From Nitrospirota bacterium (GTDB taxonomy: Bacteria > Nitrospirota > Nitrospiria > SBBL01 > JAADHI01), in assembly GCA_029261155.1 (NCBI GenBank), contig JAJDBW010000021.1:1-64000 (forward strand): 64,000 nt of DNA, given 5' to 3'. The position numbers and the translations under genes were made by a program. Below are positions 23,170 through 49,892 of this stretch, one piece after another (the first letter of the stretch is position 1; each line of letters begins with the position of its first letter). The notes beneath the pieces are model-generated. The model had not been told where the DNA came from and ran no database searches. It saw only the letters and a list, made by a program, of their open reading frames with translations.

Positions 23170-23904
23170 TTATTCGGGATAGGCAACCATGACGATGGAG
23201 ATGTTATCTTCTCCGCCCTTTTTTTTGGCGAGATCAACCATCTTCCGTGCAGCGGCTTCGATATCTTCTTTTGAATCGATGAAGATCGTTGTGAGGTCTA
23301 AGGGAGAAAGCTTGTTGCTTAAGCCGTCCGAGCAAAGGAGGTAGATATCTCCGGGGCGCGGTGTGCGTTTGAAGGTTTCGACTTCGACCTCGGCTCCGGT
23401 ACCCAAGGCGCGGCTCAAAACATGCTTTTGCGGATGGTTGTCGGCGGCCTCGGGTGCCAAGACCCCTCTTTTTACATATTCGTTGACAAGGGAATGGTCG
23501 TGGGTCAGTTGTTGAATTGCGTTGTTTTGGTAAAGGTAGACGCGGCTGTCACCCACAAAGCCGATCGTGACCTCATCCGGCTTGGCCCAGAGCGCAACCA
23601 CCGTGGTTCCCATACCATTTAAGGCGGCATCTTCTAAACTGGTGGTGAAGATTTTCCGATTGGCATGCGAGATTGCCCCGGTTAACTCCTCCTCTATCGG
23701 TGCCGTTTCGCGATTGGCGGCGCGCACCATACAATACGATTTGATTTGATCGACAGCCATTCGGCTCGCCACTTCACCTGCCGCATGGCCGCCCATTCCG
23801 TCGGCAACGATGTAGAGCCCCAGGGCGTTGAAACGTCCGATACTATCTTCATTGGAGCGGCGAACACAGCCGACATCGCTGACGCCCGTTGAGGTAATAC
23901 TCAT
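23170..23904 (-). CDS. PP2C-family protein serine/threonine phosphatase
   Basis: A 244-residue PrpC/Stp1-type phosphatase with all metal-binding motifs: VRRSNEDSIG, YIVADGMGGHAAGEVAS, TVVALWAKP, GFVGDSRVYLY, LTHDHSLV, LLCSDGLSNKLS and the final GGEDNISIVMV. It removes phosphate from Ser/Thr residues and is the natural opponent of a Hanks-type kinase; the only such kinase in view is at 38.7-41.1 kb, about 15 kb away. No membrane segment is present, so it is cytoplasmic. Confidence 0.93.
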   Translation of the reverse strand: MSITSTGVSDVGCVRRSNEDSIGRFNALGLYIVADGMGGHAAGEVASRMAVDQIKSYCMVRAANRETAPIEEELTGAISHANRKIFTTSLEDAALNGMGTTVVALWAKPDEVTIGFVGDSRVYLYQNNAIQQLTHDHSLVNEYVKRGVLAPEAADNHPQKHVLSRALGTGAEVEVETFKRTPRPGDIYLLCSDGLSNKLSPLDLTTIFIDSKEDIEAAARKMVDLAKKKGGEDNISIVMVAYPE

Positions 23905-38659: not shown

Positions 38660-41125
38660 TTATGTTTTTTGATTGATGTTTGGGTTTGGCGGGGACGCGT
38701 GTGGTGCCACTGCAGTGGCTTTCGAGAGATTGGAGATGGCGTCGATTACTTCATCGACCGATTTATAACGGAGTGCTTTTTTCTTTTCAATGCATTTTAG
38801 AACGATTTTTTCGAGTGCGGGGGGGACCTTGGGGTTAATAGACCTCAGAGGACTCGGATAGGAGTGGAGATGTTGATAGTAAATGTCGCCTTTGGAAAAA
38901 GGCGGCTTCCCGGTTAACATTCGATAAAAACTACAGCCGAGGGAATAGATGTCTGAAAGTTTATCGACTTGTTCGCCAACGATTTGTTCCGGAGACATAT
39001 AGAGGGGAGTGCCTTTGACGGAAGTTCTCTCATCCATTGCGTCAGTCAAGCGCTTGGCCAAACCGAAATCCATGATCTTGACCGTCCGGTCGCGTAGCAG
39101 CATGACATTGGACGGTTTCAGATCGCGATGGATGACATTCCTTTGGTGCGCATAGGCGACGCCGCGGCAGACCGATTTCATAATCTCAATCAATTCACTA
39201 AGTGACGCTTTGTAGCGTTCTTGATATTGTTTTAAGGTGATGCCATCGACATATTCCATGGTGATATAGATGTCTTCTCCATTTTTCCCCGTATCGAAGA
39301 TGGTCACTAAATTAGGATGGTTGAGTGCGGCGGCGATCTGGGCTTCTTGCAGAAAATTTTTCAGCACAGCCGGATTTTCTTTTATGGCGTCGGGGAGAAT
39401 TTTGTAGGCGACAATGCGTTTCAGCACAATGTCTTCGGCCTGAAATACAACGCCCATCCCCCCTTGGCCGATTTTTTTGATCATCTTATAACGGGAAGCC
39501 TGTGTTCCATTTGTGGCTTGAGACTGCTGTTCGAAGACCTGTTTGGATTCAGAATGATTCAAGGCTTTTTTGACTTCGGCCAAGGCCTTTTTAAGGAGAT
39601 CTCTTCGATCTTTGACATCTTTGTAGGCGTAATCTTTTTTTAAGATCGCATCATACAATTTTTCTGATTTTTCGAATTCTTTCCCCAGTTCGTAAAGAAC
39701 GCCAAGCCGGTAATAGATTTCAATGTTTTTAGACGATACCGGTTCTTCTGAGACCACTTTTCGATAACAATCTTTTGCCGCGGGCAGCATCTTACGCTGC
39801 GTGAGCAGTTCACCCAGGAGTAGGGATGCCGGATAGTAATGAGACACATCTTTTCCTACGCGTTGGAGATAGGAGATACAACGGTCGAGATCACCATGAT
39901 TTTTAAAAAAGAGTGCCGCTTCATAGTAGTTTCCGAGCAAGTCTTGCATTTGTGCGGCGCGGTCGAATTGCTTTAAGTTGACGTAAAGATCGGAGGCTTC
40001 CATTAAACGGCCGCTTCGCTCTAGTGCGCGCGCTGCCGAGGAAAGATCTTCCGAGGCCAGGAATAAATCGGCGCTACGGTGATAATCCCCCGCTTGTTCA
40101 TACATTTCGCCGGCCTTCTTTTTTTCTCCCGCTTCTTCGTACATCTCTGCAGCTTCAACCCAAGATTCTCCTTCTTCGAAGGCCTTTGCTGCGGAAAGGG
40201 AATCGCCTGTTTCTTGGTGTTGCTTGGCCATAATCCAATGGCTTTGTTTTTCGTCTCCCATGGCCTCGAAAAGCTTGGCGGCCTTTTCATAGGACTTGGC
40301 AGAAAGATAAAACTGCGCCGCTTTTTCTATTTCTCCCGCTTGAACAGCGGCTTCTGCCGCTTGATTCGGGTAGCCGGCTTCAGAATAGATTTCCATTGCC
40401 TTTTTGAATTCGCCAATTTTCATATATAAGGCGCCGCCTTCAATAGCGGCTTGTTTGATTTGTTTTACTTTCTCGGGAGAGACGTTAGAGGAGACAAGCT
40501 TTTGTTTCATGAAATAGGAATGATATTTTTCCGCCGCTTTTTCGTAGTCTTTAGAGCGTTTGTAGAGTTCGGCGGCTTTGAAAAGTCGACCGAATTTTTC
40601 GAATTGAATTGCAGCTTGTTTAAATTCACGTCCCTTTTCGTACATTTCGGCCGCAAGGAGATTTTTGTTGCAGGACAGATAACATTCCGCAGCGCGAAGA
40701 TATCCCCCCCCGCGTTGATACATGATGGCCGCTTTTTCGGTCTCTCCGGAAATTTTATAAAATTGTGCGGCGTCATCCCATTGTTTCATGATCTCATACA
40801 CACGGCCCACCTGCTGAAAGGCGCGGGCCTGTTTATATGCTTCGATCGCTTGGTTGTAATCGCCCGCCTTTTCGAAAAGCTCTCCGGCAAGATAAGGGTC
40901 TTGTGATTTGGCTGCTTGCTCGGCCGCAGCCGACGGGTCGAATTGTCGTTCGCCCCGCATGGCGGAATAGCGTTTAAAGAGAGACAAACCCCAAAAAACC
41001 AAGACACCGAGTAAGGCATAGCCGATCCAGCCGGCCGTGGAGACCTTGGAGAGGTAGGGTTGAATTAAGTTCGTCCCCTTTTGGAGGAGTGCGCCGAGAT
41101 CGTTTTGCATGGTAGAGGGGTTCAT
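38660..41125 (-). CDS. Membrane-anchored TPR-array Ser/Thr protein kinase
   Basis: An 821-residue protein with an inverted domain order. A membrane segment (IGYALLGVLVFWGLSLF, about 34-51) is followed by a long TPR/Sel1-like array (about 75-520) rich in YxxAAExY and AxLYE-type helices, and a Hanks-type kinase domain at the C-terminus (about 545-810). Kinase motifs: GQGGMGVVFQAED, VAYKIL (Lys of VAVK), HRDLKPSNVML, DFGLAKR, and GTPLYMSPEQ. All catalytic residues are present. It overlaps the FHA gene by 4 bases (ATGA), so the FHA protein is its probable phosphopeptide-reading partner or substrate. The signal sensed is unknown. Confidence 0.9.
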   Translation of the reverse strand: MNPSTMQNDLGALLQKGTNLIQPYLSKVSTAGWIGYALLGVLVFWGLSLFKRYSAMRGERQFDPSAAAEQAAKSQDPYLAGELFEKAGDYNQAIEAYKQARAFQQVGRVYEIMKQWDDAAQFYKISGETEKAAIMYQRGGGYLRAAECYLSCNKNLLAAEMYEKGREFKQAAIQFEKFGRLFKAAELYKRSKDYEKAAEKYHSYFMKQKLVSSNVSPEKVKQIKQAAIEGGALYMKIGEFKKAMEIYSEAGYPNQAAEAAVQAGEIEKAAQFYLSAKSYEKAAKLFEAMGDEKQSHWIMAKQHQETGDSLSAAKAFEEGESWVEAAEMYEEAGEKKKAGEMYEQAGDYHRSADLFLASEDLSSAARALERSGRLMEASDLYVNLKQFDRAAQMQDLLGNYYEAALFFKNHGDLDRCISYLQRVGKDVSHYYPASLLLGELLTQRKMLPAAKDCYRKVVSEEPVSSKNIEIYYRLGVLYELGKEFEKSEKLYDAILKKDYAYKDVKDRRDLLKKALAEVKKALNHSESKQVFEQQSQATNGTQASRYKMIKKIGQGGMGVVFQAEDIVLKRIVAYKILPDAIKENPAVLKNFLQEAQIAAALNHPNLVTIFDTGKNGEDIYITMEYVDGITLKQYQERYKASLSELIEIMKSVCRGVAYAHQRNVIHRDLKPSNVMLLRDRTVKIMDFGLAKRLTDAMDERTSVKGTPLYMSPEQIVGEQVDKLSDIYSLGCSFYRMLTGKPPFSKGDIYYQHLHSYPSPLRSINPKVPPALEKIVLKCIEKKKALRYKSVDEVIDAISNLSKATAVAPHASPPNPNINQKT

Positions 41126-42123
41126 GAGCGAAGTACCACTTTAATGGTGGTGTCTCCTAGGCGGATGGTGTCCTTGTCCGATACTTTTTGCCGAGTTACT
41201 CTTTCACCATTGACGAAGAGGCCGTTTGTACTTTTTTGATCCACAACGATGAGCGTGCCTTCAGATTGTTCTAAATCGGCATGATGGCGTGAAACTTGTG
41301 GATCGCTGAGTCGAATATCGCCCATACCCCGACCGATCGTAGCCCGTTTTTGAACCAGATCGATGATCGTTCCAGCTTGATCTCCGCTAAGAAATTCGAT
41401 TGCCCATTGTCCATGCTCTGCTTCAACCTCGTCTTCGACGATTTGATCTTCCGCGTCGCTCCAAAGTTCGATATCGGAGGGTGTAATGGAAGCAATCTGT
41501 TCCTCTGCAGCGTCTTGATCTTCTGCTGGAGAGACCGTGATTTCTTGGTAGAGTGCGATTTGAGCCGGCGGGGCCTTTGAAAAATCGGTAAAGGTGATAA
41601 AGGCGTCCTTTAGATCTCCGCTTTTGTTCTTTGTATTCGCTTCGAAGTAGCCGTCGCAGAGCGTCCCTTCTCTAAAATAAAAGAGGTTAAGCTGATGCTC
41701 CTTCATCAAACTCAAGACAGCATCCTTTTTATCCCGATTGATGTTGCCCAAAAGACGGTCGTTATCGATCATATCGCTCGACACGACAGCGGTGGGCTGG
41801 CTTTGAGCCAGGACAAGCAAGGCTTTAAAGAGGACCGGACTAATCAGATAAAGGCTTAAAACCCCATAGGAATGGGACATTTCAGCAAAGTAGTCTGAAA
41901 AAGAAACCCGCTTGAATCCATTTCCATCGAGCTTGTAGGCCGCATAAAGCGCACTCTGGAAGATAAAGAGAATCGTTGGGCGATCCTCTCCTTCTAGAAG
42001 CAGTACGGCCGTCGAAATTTCCCCCTTGCGCTTGAGATTTCCAAGCAGCGGTTCGACTGAATCGTGGGGATCGAGATTGGCGGAATAGGCCTTTTTTTGG
42101 CTGGTAATCAACTCTTTTAACAC
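41122..42123 (-). CDS. FHA-domain protein
   Basis: A 333-residue protein that starts with GTG (MLKELITSQKKAYSAN). The N-terminal 240 residues form an unrecognised domain (TAVLLLEGEDRPTILFIFQ, LFYFREGTLCDGYFEANTKN) that looks like a two-part sensing or binding module. The C-terminal forkhead-associated domain (about 258-333) binds phosphothreonine peptides: ATIGRGMGDIRLSDPQVSRHHADLE, the Asn in STNGLFVNG and DTIRLGDTTIKV. The start codon lies in a 16-bp palindrome. It is the first gene of a two-gene unit with the TPR-kinase. Confidence 0.82.
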   Translation of the reverse strand: MLKELITSQKKAYSANLDPHDSVEPLLGNLKRKGEISTAVLLLEGEDRPTILFIFQSALYAAYKLDGNGFKRVSFSDYFAEMSHSYGVLSLYLISPVLFKALLVLAQSQPTAVVSSDMIDNDRLLGNINRDKKDAVLSLMKEHQLNLFYFREGTLCDGYFEANTKNKSGDLKDAFITFTDFSKAPPAQIALYQEITVSPAEDQDAAEEQIASITPSDIELWSDAEDQIVEDEVEAEHGQWAIEFLSGDQAGTIIDLVQKRATIGRGMGDIRLSDPQVSRHHADLEQSEGTLIVVDQKSTNGLFVNGERVTRQKVSDKDTIRLGDTTIKVVLRS

Positions 42124-42379: not shown

Positions 42380-42856
42380 TTATTGTGGGCTTGTTTGGGA
42401 GGAGCTGGAGTCATGATGTTGTTGTGCGTTTAGGGTGCGTGTGGCCTTTTCTAGGATAGAGCGTTCGCTGCTGTGTGCGAGCATTCCCAGGGCCTCTTGG
42501 ATGCAGACCCATCGTGCTTCTTCTACTTCGCCGTCGTGGTCTTCGGTATTTCCGTTTAAGTACTTGAGCAGATAAAAATGGACCGTTTTGAAGATTTTCG
42601 ACGCTTCCTGCCTAGAATAAAACCAGTATTGAATGCGGCCAATCTTTTCAAGGATATGGCCGTTAGTGCCTGTCTCTTCGCGTACTTCCCTTAATGCCGT
42701 TTCTTGGAGCGATTCGCCTTCTTCAACCGATCCTTTTGGAAGGCACCAGATCAACCGCCCTTTTAAATTAAGGTGAGAGATCAAGATGACTTGAAGACGC
42801 CCCTCTTTCTCGTCGAAAACGACGCCCCCGGAAGAGGTATGTTTCCTGGTCTTCAT
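42380..42856 (-). CDS. Nudix hydrolase
   Basis: A 158-residue Nudix-fold pyrophosphohydrolase. The Nudix box GX5EX7REUXEEXGU is read as GSVEEGESLQETALREVREETGT within ILISHLNLKGRLIWCLPKGS. The LPKGSVEEGE form is that of diadenosine polyphosphate or RNA-cap-type hydrolases (RppH/Ap4A-like). It starts MKTRKHTSSGGVVFDE and is the only gene in its unit; the 250 bases after it are AT-rich. Substrate not determined. Confidence 0.9.
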   Translation of the reverse strand: MKTRKHTSSGGVVFDEKEGRLQVILISHLNLKGRLIWCLPKGSVEEGESLQETALREVREETGTNGHILEKIGRIQYWFYSRQEASKIFKTVHFYLLKYLNGNTEDHDGEVEEARWVCIQEALGMLAHSSERSILEKATRTLNAQQHHDSSSSQTSPQ

Positions 42857-45653: not shown

Positions 45654-46103
45654 TTAATCGTGAATGGAAAGGACAAGCTTCGGGTTTAAGTAGACGATGA
45701 CGTCATCCAGGAAAAGCCTAAAGAAACCGGACGTCGCGTTCGCATAATCCTTAACGCGCGTGCGCCCGTCGGGGAGGCTGATGTAGATCTCACCCCTAAT
45801 CTCCTCTCCCAGGATTGTTTTTACCGTTACGGTGTGTTTTTCTCCAAGCCGCATGAGGTCATCTTCTTCCTGCTGACTGTCAATTTTGGCTTGTAAAATA
45901 TGGCTTACGTTTAAAAGGACCACGCCCGTTTCGGTTTTTACCGGGATAAAGCGATCTCCTCGGCTCAAGAGGTCGTCCATTTTTTGAGCACCCAAGTGAT
46001 GTTCGTCGTACAAACTCAAATAGGTCTCTCCCTCAATCCAATTCCCATTGGACAGTTGAAATTTGGCGGTTCGCGCCCCCTTCTCGATTTTATTTTTACC
46101 CAT
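45654..46103 (-). CDS. Hypothetical protein with two similar halves, beside pilT
   Basis: A 149-residue protein that seems to contain an internal duplication: residues about 16-75 (IEGETYLSLYDE ... FIPVKTETGVVLLNVSHIL) and about 95-148 (IRGEIYISLPDG ... FFRLFLDDVIVYLNPKLVLSI) share the order 'I-x-GE-x-Y-x-SL ... F-x-x-(L/V)-x-(V/T)', each a small beta-rich module. No family is recognised. It overlaps pilT by 8 bases and is coupled to it, so a role in pilus retraction or twitching is suggested by position only. Confidence 0.7.
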   Translation of the reverse strand: MGKNKIEKGARTAKFQLSNGNWIEGETYLSLYDEHHLGAQKMDDLLSRGDRFIPVKTETGVVLLNVSHILQAKIDSQQEEDDLMRLGEKHTVTVKTILGEEIRGEIYISLPDGRTRVKDYANATSGFFRLFLDDVIVYLNPKLVLSIHD

Positions 46104-47166
46104 ATTTCACTGCCTGTTGCGGTATGGGAAAACGCTCCTTGCTCGTTGCGTACTTGTGGGCTTCCTCGACTGTCACTTTTTTTTCTGAAACCAAGGCTTG
46201 AAGAGCCTGGTCCATCTGCTGCATGCCGTCCTTCTTTCCCGTTTGAATCACCGAGGGAATTTGAAAGGTTTTGCCCTCTCGAATCAGGTTCGAGACCGCG
46301 TGCGTCACATAGAGAATCTCCAAGGCGGCGGCCCTTTTCCCGTCGATGGTTTTGAGGAGCTGTTGTGAGATGACCCCTTTTAAAGATTCGGCGAGCATGG
46401 CGCGAATCTGCTCTTGTTGATTGGTGGGAAACACATTGATGATTCGATCGACCGTCTTGGAGGCGCTACTGGTATGAAGCGTACCGAAAACAAGATGACC
46501 GGTTTCCGCCGCTGTAATGGCCAACTCGATGGTTTCGAGGTCACGCATTTCTCCCACCAAGATAATGTCGGGGTCTTCCCGAAGCGCTGCCTTCAGCGCT
46601 GAGGCGAAGCTTTGGGTATGACGACCGACCTCCCTTTGATTGACCAAACTTTGCTTACTGGGGTGAACAAACTCGATCGGATCTTCTACGGTGAGAATGT
46701 GTTCCTTTTGCGAAGCATTGATATAGTCGACCATGGCGGCGAGGGTTGTGGATTTCCCGCTCCCTGTCGGTCCGGTCACCAAAACCAGGCCCTTCTTTAA
46801 CTGACAAAAACGGAGAACGACATCAGGAAGGCCGAGATCTTTCACGCTCAGAATCTTTGTCGGGATCAAGCGAAAAACGGCTGAGATCCCTAATCTTCCG
46901 AAAAAAATATTTGCCCGAAAACGGCAAGCCAGTTCTAGGACTTCGTAAGCACAATCAAGGTCGTGGCTCGCTTCGAAACGTTTACGTTCGCTTTCGGTCA
47001 GCATGCCGTAGACCAGGGATTTGATCTGTTCATGTGTGAGCTTTTGTGCCATGAGCGGGACCAATTCCCCGCCCGCACGCATGAGCGGAGGGTTTTCGGG
47101 AGAAAGATGGAGGTCGGAGCCATTTTTATCTTTTAGCGCTTTAAAAAGCTTGTCGATTTGGGGCAT
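46096..47166 (-). CDS. pilT: Type IV pilus retraction ATPase PilT
   Basis: A 356-residue hexameric ATPase that depolymerises the type IV pilus. Motifs: N-terminal SDLHLSPENPPLMRAGGELV, Walker A GPTGSGKSTT, Asp box HILTVEDPIEFVH, Walker B DPDIILVGEMRDLETIELA and His box GHLVFGTLHTSSASKTVDRI. The C-terminal AIRNLIRE motif of PilT is present as HAVSNLIREGKTFQ. PilU is the closest alternative. It is followed at once by the 149-residue gene; no other pilus gene is in the window. Confidence 0.94.
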   Translation of the reverse strand: MPQIDKLFKALKDKNGSDLHLSPENPPLMRAGGELVPLMAQKLTHEQIKSLVYGMLTESERKRFEASHDLDCAYEVLELACRFRANIFFGRLGISAVFRLIPTKILSVKDLGLPDVVLRFCQLKKGLVLVTGPTGSGKSTTLAAMVDYINASQKEHILTVEDPIEFVHPSKQSLVNQREVGRHTQSFASALKAALREDPDIILVGEMRDLETIELAITAAETGHLVFGTLHTSSASKTVDRIINVFPTNQQEQIRAMLAESLKGVISQQLLKTIDGKRAAALEILYVTHAVSNLIREGKTFQIPSVIQTGKKDGMQQMDQALQALVSEKKVTVEEAHKYATSKERFPIPQQAVKYG

Positions 47167-47402: not shown

Positions 47403-49892
47403 TTAACAGCAGTCCGTTGACGAACAGGAGTCTGCGTCTTCCGAGGCCTTGGCCTTGATGACAGACGCTTCCCCTTGTGTGATCACGAAGGCCTGTTGGT
47501 AAGGTGGCTTTTGTAGTTTCGCCGCCGTATCGGTGCACACCTGCACGGCTTGATTCCGAGGGAAGAGATGGCCTTCCTCATCCACGACGGCTTGCATGGG
47601 GCCCAGGTAGGTTGCCCATTGTCCGACATAGTTGCAGCTCGCCTTTTTTTCGAATTTGTAGCCGCGAATAACTGCGGAGTAAAACCGGTAGCCTTCCACT
47701 TCTTTCCAAAGGGTTTTTTTCAAAATGGAGAGCCCGTAGAAGCCGGCCTGTTCGAGCTTCGCCAGATATTCCTTTTCGGTCAGCGCCCCCGAGACGCATT
47801 CTCCCCAAAGGCGTGGATTGGCCTTCATCCCCTCGGGCAGGGCCTGTTCCGTAATGGTATCCGAGATAACGATGCGCCCGAAATCTTTCAAGACGCGCCA
47901 AATCTCGACGAAGACCTGTTTTTTATCGGGGGAAAGATTGATAACGCAATTCGAGGTGACCAGATCGGTAAATTGGTCCGGCAAGGGGATTTCTTCGAGA
48001 TAGCCCTTTTTGAATTCGACATTGGCATAGCCTAGATTGGCCGCGACGATTTCTCTCGCCGCGTTGGCTTGACGCAGCATCCGATCGGTCATGTCGATGC
48101 CGACGACACGGCCCCTGGGCCCGACTTTTTTGGCGGCGATAAAACAGTCGATGCCACCGCCCGAACCGAGATCAACCATGATTTCACCTGCTTTGAGGCC
48201 GGCCAGATCCACCGGGCTGCCGCAGCCGTAGGAAATTTCCAGGACCTCCTTGGGGATGTGGTCGCTACCGTCCAAGGGATAGCCCTCGGGGCAGCAAAGT
48301 GCGGCCTGTGGGGTTTCGGCCGCATCTCCGTAGAAATCGCTGACGACGCGGCGGGAGTGATCGAGATCGACCGAGAGGACACAGGCCGAACGCGAGAGCG
48401 AAACCGCGAAGCCGCCAAGGGTTTCGACGCCAGGACGGGGGCTGTCTAAAACGGCATCGTCCCCCATGGCGGCAAAAATGACCGGCCGGTCATAGCCGGA
48501 GGCGGTTTTCTGCCGGGCCTTGGCCTCCGCGCGAGAAAATAAAATATCCAATATCCAGGCTTCGTAAAAATCGGAGAAGGGGTCTTCGCCCAAAAATCGA
48601 CCGCTGTATAAGTAGCTGTGTTCAATATCGCCGCCGCCGCAAAGGAATTTTAGATAACAGTCTTTACATTTCGCCTTATTTTGCACGGTCGCTTTACGAA
48701 TCGATTCAGCCAGAGGCGCGTTTTTCCATATGGCCTCAAGACTTTTTTCCAAAGTACTGCCCAAACTCAGTTCAGGAATCCCGGCCAGGGCCGCCGTCGG
48801 GTAGACTTGCGCGTCCGCATACACGCAGAGGGATTCGTAGGCCGCGTTGGAGAGATCGACCTTTAGATGCGATGGTCCCATTAAGCTGCCCATCAACACA
48901 TCGTGATTGTCGAAGCTGAGGCCCAGGGCATCCGTCGCCGCCTTGCTGCGTTTGAAGGCTTCGAGCAAGGCCGCAGTCGAAGGGGGCGCGAGGGTATCCG
49001 ATTCGAGGGCACGGCCTCGGTGATGACTCAGCAGGAGATGGAGATTTTTAATGCCGAGCTTTGAGGCGAGATGAACCATGTCTTCGAGATGCGCGACATT
49101 CGAGCGATTCACGACCGTGGTGAGGGTGGGAGAAAAACCGAGGCCGATGGCTTCTTTGATGCCACGGATGGTCGCGTCGAAGGTTCCGTTTCCCCGCATG
49201 GCATTGTTGATTTCGGCCGTCGGCCCGTCCAGGCTGATTTGGAGCTGCAGGCGGTTTGGATCGCAGAGGGATAATTTCTTGAGGTGTTCTCCACGAAACA
49301 GCATGCCGTTGGTCAGGATAATCAATTCCGCCTTCGGTATCTCAAGGATATGGTCGATGATTTCGAAGATGTCGTCTCTTAAAAAGGGTTCGCCGCCCGT
49401 AATGTAAAAACGCGATGTTCCCAAGGCCTGGGCTTGATCGATGATATTTAACCAAAACGCCGTGTCTCCACCGGGGATGCCGCTGGGCGAAGAGCTGACC
49501 AGGCAATGGCTGCAGCTGAGGTTGCAGGCATTGGTGACATGAAGCCATAGTTCACTCAAGCGGCCGGGGCGGAGGACTTCGGCGCGGCCGGGATAGGGGG
49601 CCTTCGTTTGGGATTGCGTCGAGATGAATTTCTTGCCGAGCGCCTCCTCGAAAAAACTGTGGCAATGCAGCCAGGCCTTGGCCCAGTCCATGCCGTTTTC
49701 TCGGGCGTAGGTTGCAACGAGATCGCCGAAGGTTGTCTTCCCATCCAGCTTGCGAATCAAGTCGGCGCCTTGGGCGTCCGTCGCAATCCAATGGGGCCCT
49801 TCCGGATCGATTAAAAGTCTGAGATTTTGACGAGAGATCTCTCGGTAGAGGGGGACGAAAAATCGACTGTCGTTTGCAATGGCTTCAGTCAT
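47403..49892 (-). CDS. PqqD-like - radical SAM/SPASM - ArsM-type methyltransferase fusion
   Basis: An 829-residue three-part protein. Residues about 30-92 ([20 protein letters not shown] ... [12 protein letters not shown]) have the helix-turn-helix layout of PqqD/RiPP-recognition domains. The radical SAM core has Cys 123, 127 and 130 ([12 protein letters not shown]), the GGEPF motif and an auxiliary-cluster SPASM motif [14 protein letters not shown] near 405-425. The rest is an arsenite S-adenosylmethionine methyltransferase-like module (about 520-800): [51 protein letters not shown] and [12 protein letters not shown] carry the conserved arsenic-binding cysteines. The C-terminus ends CSSTDCC. 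It is divergent from the Crp/Fnr gene with a palindromic operator between them. No arsR or ars operon is nearby, so the arsenic substrate is likely but not shown. Confidence 0.85.

Follow-up and report, generated by a model that had tools for sequence, protein, structure and literature searches.

A solenoid-first Ser/Thr kinase and its adjoining FHA protein in Nitrospirota, probably a single signalling unit

The 64,000-nucleotide stretch analysed here (the window) corresponds to bases 1-64000 of contig C14 in the 3.56 Mb draft genome, of 95.6% completeness, of a Nitrospirota bacterium. It carries a gene for an FHA protein followed by one for a Ser/Thr protein kinase, in which a putative membrane helix and a long helical repeat region precede the kinase domain. 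The parts are of known kinds, their order is unusual and, because the two genes stay together in many related bacteria, they probably form one signalling unit. We lean slightly towards the view that the pair is a two-protein, membrane-tethered phospho-signalling module working in the manner of the PknG-GarA/OdhI system.

Conservation of the gene pair

The class was sampled with 58 genomes, the window's own included. A solenoid kinase was counted only if the match reached query residue 404 or an earlier one; matches whose start lay at residue 414 of the query or beyond were disregarded, of which G041 had two and G004 and G007 had one apiece. Such kinases were found in 27 genomes and, among the matches listed, the FHA protein with the same N-terminal domain (N-domain) in the same 27. 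The FHA gene adjoins the kinase gene on the same strand in all 27 cases. At 21 loci the two genes overlap by 4 bases and at three by 1 base; the remaining junctions are a gap of 11 bases (L084), a gap of 19 bases (L089) and a locus where the FHA frame is broken (L083, genome G017). The 31 genomes devoid of the pair include two from pair-bearing families, G016 (72% completeness) and G036 (88%). The flanking genes vary between families, and in family f9 (L085, L089 and L092) the arrangement is small FHA gene, shorter solenoid kinase gene, N-domain FHA gene. When 43 kinase domains were placed in a tree, the 27 that are FHA-linked made up one side of a branch with a support of 98/94 (of the two G041 loci, the L099 kinase was placed by the tree and the L098 kinase left out). 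Judged from these comparisons, the pair is an inherited unit within the class sample. The scan of one contig collection gave six loci, all titled metagenome-assembled genomes of Nitrospira, Nitrospirota, Nitrospiria or Manganitrophaceae.

For the phylum, 295 genomes were sampled. Solenoid-first kinases were also found in other classes (families f16, f17 and f20), and the N-domain FHA protein in family f18 of another class (loci L105-L111). Nine of the ten fetched f16, f17 and f20 loci were scored; L120 (G077) was not. The count also leaves aside G068 and G085, whose matches were partial. Read by eye, the neighbours of the f17 kinase at L121 are GlmM and ComEC/Rec2, and the f18 FHA protein adjoins a hypoxanthine phosphoribosyltransferase-like gene at three loci. 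Since the partners are found apart in these other classes, and given the 98/94 branch, the kinase architecture is wider than its FHA link in this sample, and a single origin of the pair fits. An earlier note, made from the letters of the window alone (the sequence-only reading), had called the order of the kinase parts unusual. This holds in so far as, in the literature passages, TPR kinases with a stated order have the kinase domain first, but it has to be tempered by the solenoid-first kinases of the other classes.

The kinase domain

As the sequence-only reading had it, the kinase domain is C-terminal: it occupies residues 546-788 of 821, after the solenoid, and matches Pkinase (PF00069) with 191.1 bits against a cut-off of 31.7. 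Invariant in 27 out of 27 aligned kinases are G553, G555, G556, G558, K575, E594, H666-R667-D668, N673 and D686-F687-G688, together with T701, K704-G705-T706-P707 and P712-E713 in the activation segment. The protein has the full set of catalytic residues and is a predicted Hanks-type Ser/Thr kinase. Its best profile, PknB_PASTA_kin (NF033483), was matched with 320.7 bits, under the curated cut-off of 450 bits. It shares this best match with the PASTA kinases PknB, PrkC and Stk1 and differs from them by a score below the family cut-off, by the C-terminal position of the kinase domain and by the lack of a PASTA match in the Pfam scan. The domain was poorly modelled by AlphaFold2, with a predicted local distance difference test (pLDDT) mostly below 50 over residues 517-719, and little weight was given for that reason to the PknB structures that head its Foldseek list, or to its VIA-align rows, beyond what the sequence profiles say.

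The FHA protein

The FHA domain (PF00498) was detected at residues 262-323 with 62.9 bits. Twenty-six FHA proteins were aligned; the product of L083, although counted as adjacent among the 27, was excluded because of its broken frame. G264, R265, S278, R279, H281, N300 and G301, i.e. the GR, SRxH and NG motifs, are invariant in all 26. The set GR, SxxH and NG is given in PMC1262709 as that of phosphothreonine-binding FHA domains, and the domain is probably able to bind phosphothreonine. In the AlphaFold2 model it superposes on chains of GarA and of OdhI over 93-98 residues (Z about 18, with a root mean square deviation of 0.9-1.6), further bacterial FHA domains, those of CT664 and DgcB among them, being within about 1 Z unit as fold matches. 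With the profile of the FHA family, Rv1827/GarA and OdhI rank first. The sequence-only reading had proposed co-occurrence of the two genes as a check, and an unconserved pair with an FHA domain lacking phosphothreonine binding as the case that counts against it. What we found is a pair kept in every one of the 27 kinase-bearing genomes among the 58, with a domain that, judged by its sequence, is predicted to bind. The adjacency and the intact catalytic and phosphothreonine-binding residues agree with its proposal of a phospho-signalling unit.

Many of the relatives have two FHA domains, and one of them, in G003, belongs to the same family as the window (f1). Since G003 keeps both, one FHA domain was probably lost in the lineage of the window protein. 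The linker between the two domains contains the motif [DE][TE]T, i.e. (D/E)(T/E)T, in 11 of the 16 aligned two-FHA proteins, these being all 11 members of f7, f10, f11 and f12, and the matching stretch of the 10 single-FHA proteins (f1 and f9) does not contain it. According to PMC8546545, GarA and OdhI carry a phosphorylatable ETTS motif. The motif is weak in each linker taken alone; jointly, the four families are suggestive of a GarA-like switch.

The N-domain (residues 1-215) was modelled as a mixed alpha/beta fold with pLDDT mostly 74-92. In the window protein it gave no Pfam match, and none to DUF4388 (PF14332) at E values up to 1. Weak DUF4388 matches were found in 8 of the 26 family members, the window protein not being among them. 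The best was that of L084 (E = 1.8e-4, 21.9 bits for a cut-off of 25), a protein that also matches the UvrC RNase H model at 0.004. When the family was compared by hhalign with 23 DUF4388 proteins, the probability was 72% with the N-domain taken entire and 89% with its second half alone, four controls giving 0.1-2%; the first half gave 1.3%, i.e. no DUF4388 signal. An internal duplication of the N-domain was discarded, as one half against the other gave 2.2%, no signal either. The Foldseek and VIA-align rows shown for the whole FHA-protein model were all taken by FHA domains and none by the N-domain. Half of the N-domain may be DUF4388-like, a distant link that we treat as a lead. DUF4388 and PATAN are related domains.

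The membrane helix and the solenoid

The sequence-only reading had described a long TPR array followed by a membrane segment and the kinase domain. The membrane segment is present but N-terminal, so that the order is transmembrane helix, solenoid, kinase. In a hydropathy scan, the top 19-residue window of the kinase was at residues 32-50, with a mean hydropathy of 1.78, and a hydrophobic 19-mer lies within the first 100 residues or so of all 27 aligned kinases (mean hydropathy 1.65-2.73). The net charge is more positive after this segment than before it in 23 of the 27 kinases, the window protein not being one of them. The solenoid and the kinase domain are likely to be cytoplasmic.

The long helical repeat region is there too, but its period is 13 residues, not the 34 of TPRs. 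Self-identity at lag 13 was 0.178 (z = 8.4), with echoes at lags 26, 39 and 52. Lag 13 ranked first in 21 of the 23 orthologues of the first period test and second in the remaining two; it was also first in the kinases of L084, L085, L089 and L092, which failed the pattern of that test and were scored separately. The control, an ordinary-looking TPR protein picked by eye (L125:4935-5927), had its top lag at 40. The AlphaFold2 model of the kinase was built from an alignment of seven sequences and has a predicted template modelling score of 0.37, which makes its overall arrangement unreliable. Within it, the solenoid helices are mostly 10 residues long and, over residues 129-447, 15 of 22 consecutive helix starts are exactly 13 apart; pLDDT was 79-92 in the ten-residue blocks of residues 121-370, save one at 67, and lower before 110 and after 370. 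Pfam gave many weak matches of the TPR, SNAP and clathrin types over residues 78-462: SNAP and, weakly, several TPR models passed their cut-offs, and Clathrin, TPR_WDR35 and GEMI5 were below theirs. The phmmer matches, weak ones, were to IFT144, to SPINDLY and to engineered TPRs; a plasmid search with the solenoid gave no match. A canonical 34-residue TPR was ruled out by the period. From the 13-residue lag, the helix spacing of the model and the Pfam and phmmer matches, we concluded that the repeat region is a short-helix solenoid, nearest to the IFT, clathrin and SNAP types, rather than a canonical TPR array.

Like this region, the solenoids of IFT-A (WDR35, IFT144), clathrin and SNAP are made of short helices, and Foldseek returned IFT-A chains. 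The differences are that the present solenoid is bacterial, is fused to a kinase and keeps a single-helix period of 13 residues over long stretches. The TPRs of OGT and SPINDLY match it as well, as do engineered ones, and the likeness to IFT, clathrin and SNAP is a resemblance, not a demonstration of common ancestry. Our literature search by title found no 13-residue solenoid named. Solenoids with the same period and no kinase domain were observed in proteins of 500-520 residues from families f25, f27 and f33 (L124:2658-4220, L125:5986-7521, L126:6398-7900 and L127:6506-8011); by eye, those of L125 and L126 have an N-terminal hydrophobic stretch.

A possible mode of action

The following scheme is drawn by analogy with PknG and with PknB/GarA. 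The kinase would be held in the inner membrane by its N-terminal helix, with solenoid and kinase domain in the cytoplasm, and its synthesis would be translationally coupled to that of the FHA protein. The solenoid would act as a docking scaffold bringing a regulator to the kinase, which would autophosphorylate its activation loop on T701 and T706. The FHA domain would then dock on a phosphothreonine of the kinase, the partner being held as substrate or adaptor, and the output would pass through the N-domain of the FHA protein. Kinase activity, FHA binding and phosphosites are, for this pair, predictions from sequence and analogy. PknB reportedly recruits GarA through its activation loop. As for PknG, PMC8546545 describes TPRs and an autophosphorylated segment that recruit an FHA substrate.

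The actinobacterial PknG-GarA/OdhI system (PMC8546545) has in common with the present pair a Hanks-type kinase, a helical-repeat scaffold and an FHA protein, and the likeness extends to the FHA domain of the window, best matched in fold by GarA and OdhI, and to the 11 relatives with the linker motif between their two FHA domains. There are differences as well. In PknG the TPRs come after the kinase domain and, in the same paper, a membrane link is proposed to be made via GlnX; here the solenoid precedes the kinase domain, has its 13-residue period and is accompanied by the protein's own transmembrane helix. Unlike GarA and OdhI, the FHA protein has an additional N-domain. As to kinases in general, PMC2877116 counts TPRs as one of the most frequent accompaniments of prokaryotic kinases, and PMC1262709 cites both FHA domains and TPRs as such; the TPR kinases for which its passages state an order are kinase-first. 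Our literature search, partial in coverage, found nothing on this pair or on this kinase order in Nitrospirota, and we do not claim their absence from print.

Weighing the explanations

A membrane-tethered module working like PknG-GarA/OdhI is argued for by the adjacency at 27 loci out of 27, the 98/94 tree branch, the invariant residues, the OdhI/GarA fold match, the PknB-type profile and the linker motif. Several observations weigh against it. It is the first domain of the two-FHA relatives that gives the best profile matches to GarA and OdhI, and at the profile position of the window domain the best match is mycobacterial TB39.8. Ahead of the FHA domain of the window protein there is no ETT-type motif; five of the 16 two-FHA proteins (L074 of f1 and four of f5) lack [DE][TE]T in their linker, and shuffling of single linkers produces it in 0.3-16% of cases. 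Threonines are scarce before the kinase domain (0-6 per 45 residues, as printed for 18 of the 27 kinases). The net charge of the window kinase is +2 before the membrane segment and +1 after it, so the charge rule leaves its topology undecided. Lastly, the partners do exist apart: the solenoid kinases of f16, f17 and f20 have no FHA gene in the fetched stretch at nine of the nine scored loci (two of which, L114 and L116, lie on contigs that end just upstream of the kinase gene), and the f18 FHA protein is without a solenoid kinase at seven loci out of seven. This separation favours another explanation, namely a general kinase with its main targets elsewhere and an FHA protein that is an independent downstream reader, co-transcribed for reasons of dosage and without docking on the kinase. 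Such an arrangement has to be reconciled with the 27/27 adjacency, with the overlap at 24 loci and with the fact that the genes remain neighbours in f9, where their order is reversed; we judge it unlikely, if by no means far-fetched. That the two genes are functionally unrelated, neighbours by chance or through the structure of a housekeeping operon, would agree with flanks that differ between families and hence point to no common pathway; yet the pair stays while the flanks change, and we regard this as very improbable.

Two further explanations were weighed. According to one, the motor of type IV pili would be under the control of the module, whose FHA protein would act on the pilus machinery through its DUF4388/PATAN-like part. 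The window has a PilT-family gene (46096-47166, 476 bits) not far from the pair, as have three other loci (L076, L077 and L078) of the eight in f1; in f18, a PilT-family gene over the cut-off (377 bits) is directly upstream of the FHA gene at L106, and a PilB/GspE-type gene, below the cut-offs for that type, is about 2.4 kb downstream of it at L111. To this are added the DUF4388-like signal of the N-domain and, in PMC7690835, cyanobacterial PATAN response regulators tied to type IV pili, one of them hypothesised to bind PilB1. However, no PilT match was found among the picked open reading frames of 19 loci of f5, f7 and f9-f12, five of the seven f18 loci have no pilus ATPase gene, unrelated-looking genes separate the PilT gene from the pair in the window, and the DUF4388 link is itself weak, so a role in pilus control looks decidedly improbable. 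According to the other, the genes would form a threonine-phosphorylation switch of type VI secretion (PpkA-PppA-Fha). A kinase, a PP2C phosphatase and an FHA protein are indeed all encoded within the window, but the PP2C gene is 15 kb from the pair and, among the matches listed, not adjacent to it in relatives; we hold such a switch to be next to negligible. The pathway itself was rejected, as the VipB/TssC sheath (PF05943) had no match in the window's own genome (G000, 95.6% completeness), whereas the E. coli sheath gene is detected by this search. Returning to the PknG-GarA/OdhI-like module, its most detailed form, in which the solenoid kinase holds the FHA protein as an adaptor by phosphothreonine docking, with a GarA-like switch in several families and a PATAN-like output, possibly on the pilus motor, is conceivable but doubtful when taken as a whole.

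If the pair does work as such a module, it would be a further arrangement of the unit of scaffold, kinase and FHA protein seen in PknG-GarA/OdhI, one in which the kinase itself carries the membrane link. What sets the pair apart is the order of the parts and this predicted built-in link; the kinds of parts (kinase, repeat scaffold, FHA) are known. It would also offer a testable entry to Ser/Thr signalling in Nitrospirota, including the Manganitrophaceae, which are manganese oxidisers. The 13-residue solenoid, which also exists free of a kinase, lends itself to structural work as a clean repeat family.

The PP2C phosphatase

The sequence-only reading had taken the PP2C gene (23170-23904, minus strand) for the opposing phosphatase of the pair. 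It is a genuine Stp1-type PP2C, which passes the NCBIfam Stp1/IreP cut-off (259 bits for 230), and its genome gave no other Stp1-family match. Its link to the pair, however, is unsupported: such a phosphatase is present in 57 of the 58 genomes, with or without the pair, and, among the matches listed, none adjoins the pair, the nearest being the window's own, 15 kb away. A dedicated partnership was therefore rejected on linkage. The PP2C may serve the pair by default, as a general phosphatase shared with other kinases. The arrangement that the sequence-only reading expected was observed around a different kinase, at L099:7417-11604 (G041, Nitrospirota), where PP2C and FHA genes are adjacent to a kinase gene. 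This locus resembles the present one in having a kinase and an FHA protein in one cluster; it differs by its adjacent PP2C gene and by its kinase, which falls outside the FHA-linked tree group.

Organisation of the locus

The features of the pair are given in Table 1. Both open reading frames were verified, with the coordinates and the 4-base overlap given by the sequence-only reading, the shared bases being 41122-41125.

Table 1. Positions in the window of the two genes and of their predicted domains
Feature	Position	Strand	Remarks
Solenoid Ser/Thr kinase gene, predicted to be membrane-anchored	38660..41125	-	821 residues, ATG start; transmembrane helix, 13-residue-period solenoid, kinase
FHA adaptor gene (putative)	41122..42123	-	333 residues, GTG start
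Overlap (ATGA) of FHA stop and kinase start	41122..41125	-	Open reading frame coordinates; 4-base overlap at 21/27 loci
Putative N-terminal transmembrane helix, kinase residues 32-50	40976..41032	-	Hydropathy scan; AlphaFold2 helix 30-56, low to middling confidence
Predicted helical solenoid, kinase residues ~77-515	39581..40897	-	Single helices, spacing mostly 13 residues
Protein kinase domain, residues 546-788	38762..39490	-	Pfam PF00069, 191 bits; own-genome search, 194 bits
Activation segment, DFG to PE, residues 686-713	38987..39070	-	T701 and T706 invariant in 27/27
N-domain of FHA protein, second half, residues 112-212, tentatively DUF4388-like	41488..41790	-	Weak Pfam matches in relatives; hhalign
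C-terminal FHA domain, residues 240-333	41125..41406	-	Pfam, AlphaFold2 fold match, invariant residues

A NUDIX hydrolase gene (42380-42856, minus strand) is immediately upstream of the pair. Homologues were found upstream of the pair at 13 of 26 relative loci (f1, f5 and f10), with intervening genes in f10; this gene is a possible functional neighbour of the pair, or else a case of conserved synteny. Also upstream, the genes for the PilT-family ATPase and for a DUF6812 protein overlap by 8 bases (45654-47166, minus strand). A further gene (47403-49892, minus strand) encodes a protein of 829 residues that has radical SAM/SPASM parts as well as parts resembling arsenite methyltransferase, and that matches PqqD weakly. 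Elsewhere in the genome there are at least two other clear kinases (on C42 and C44), and a weaker one is encoded just past the window (C14:64076-64918).

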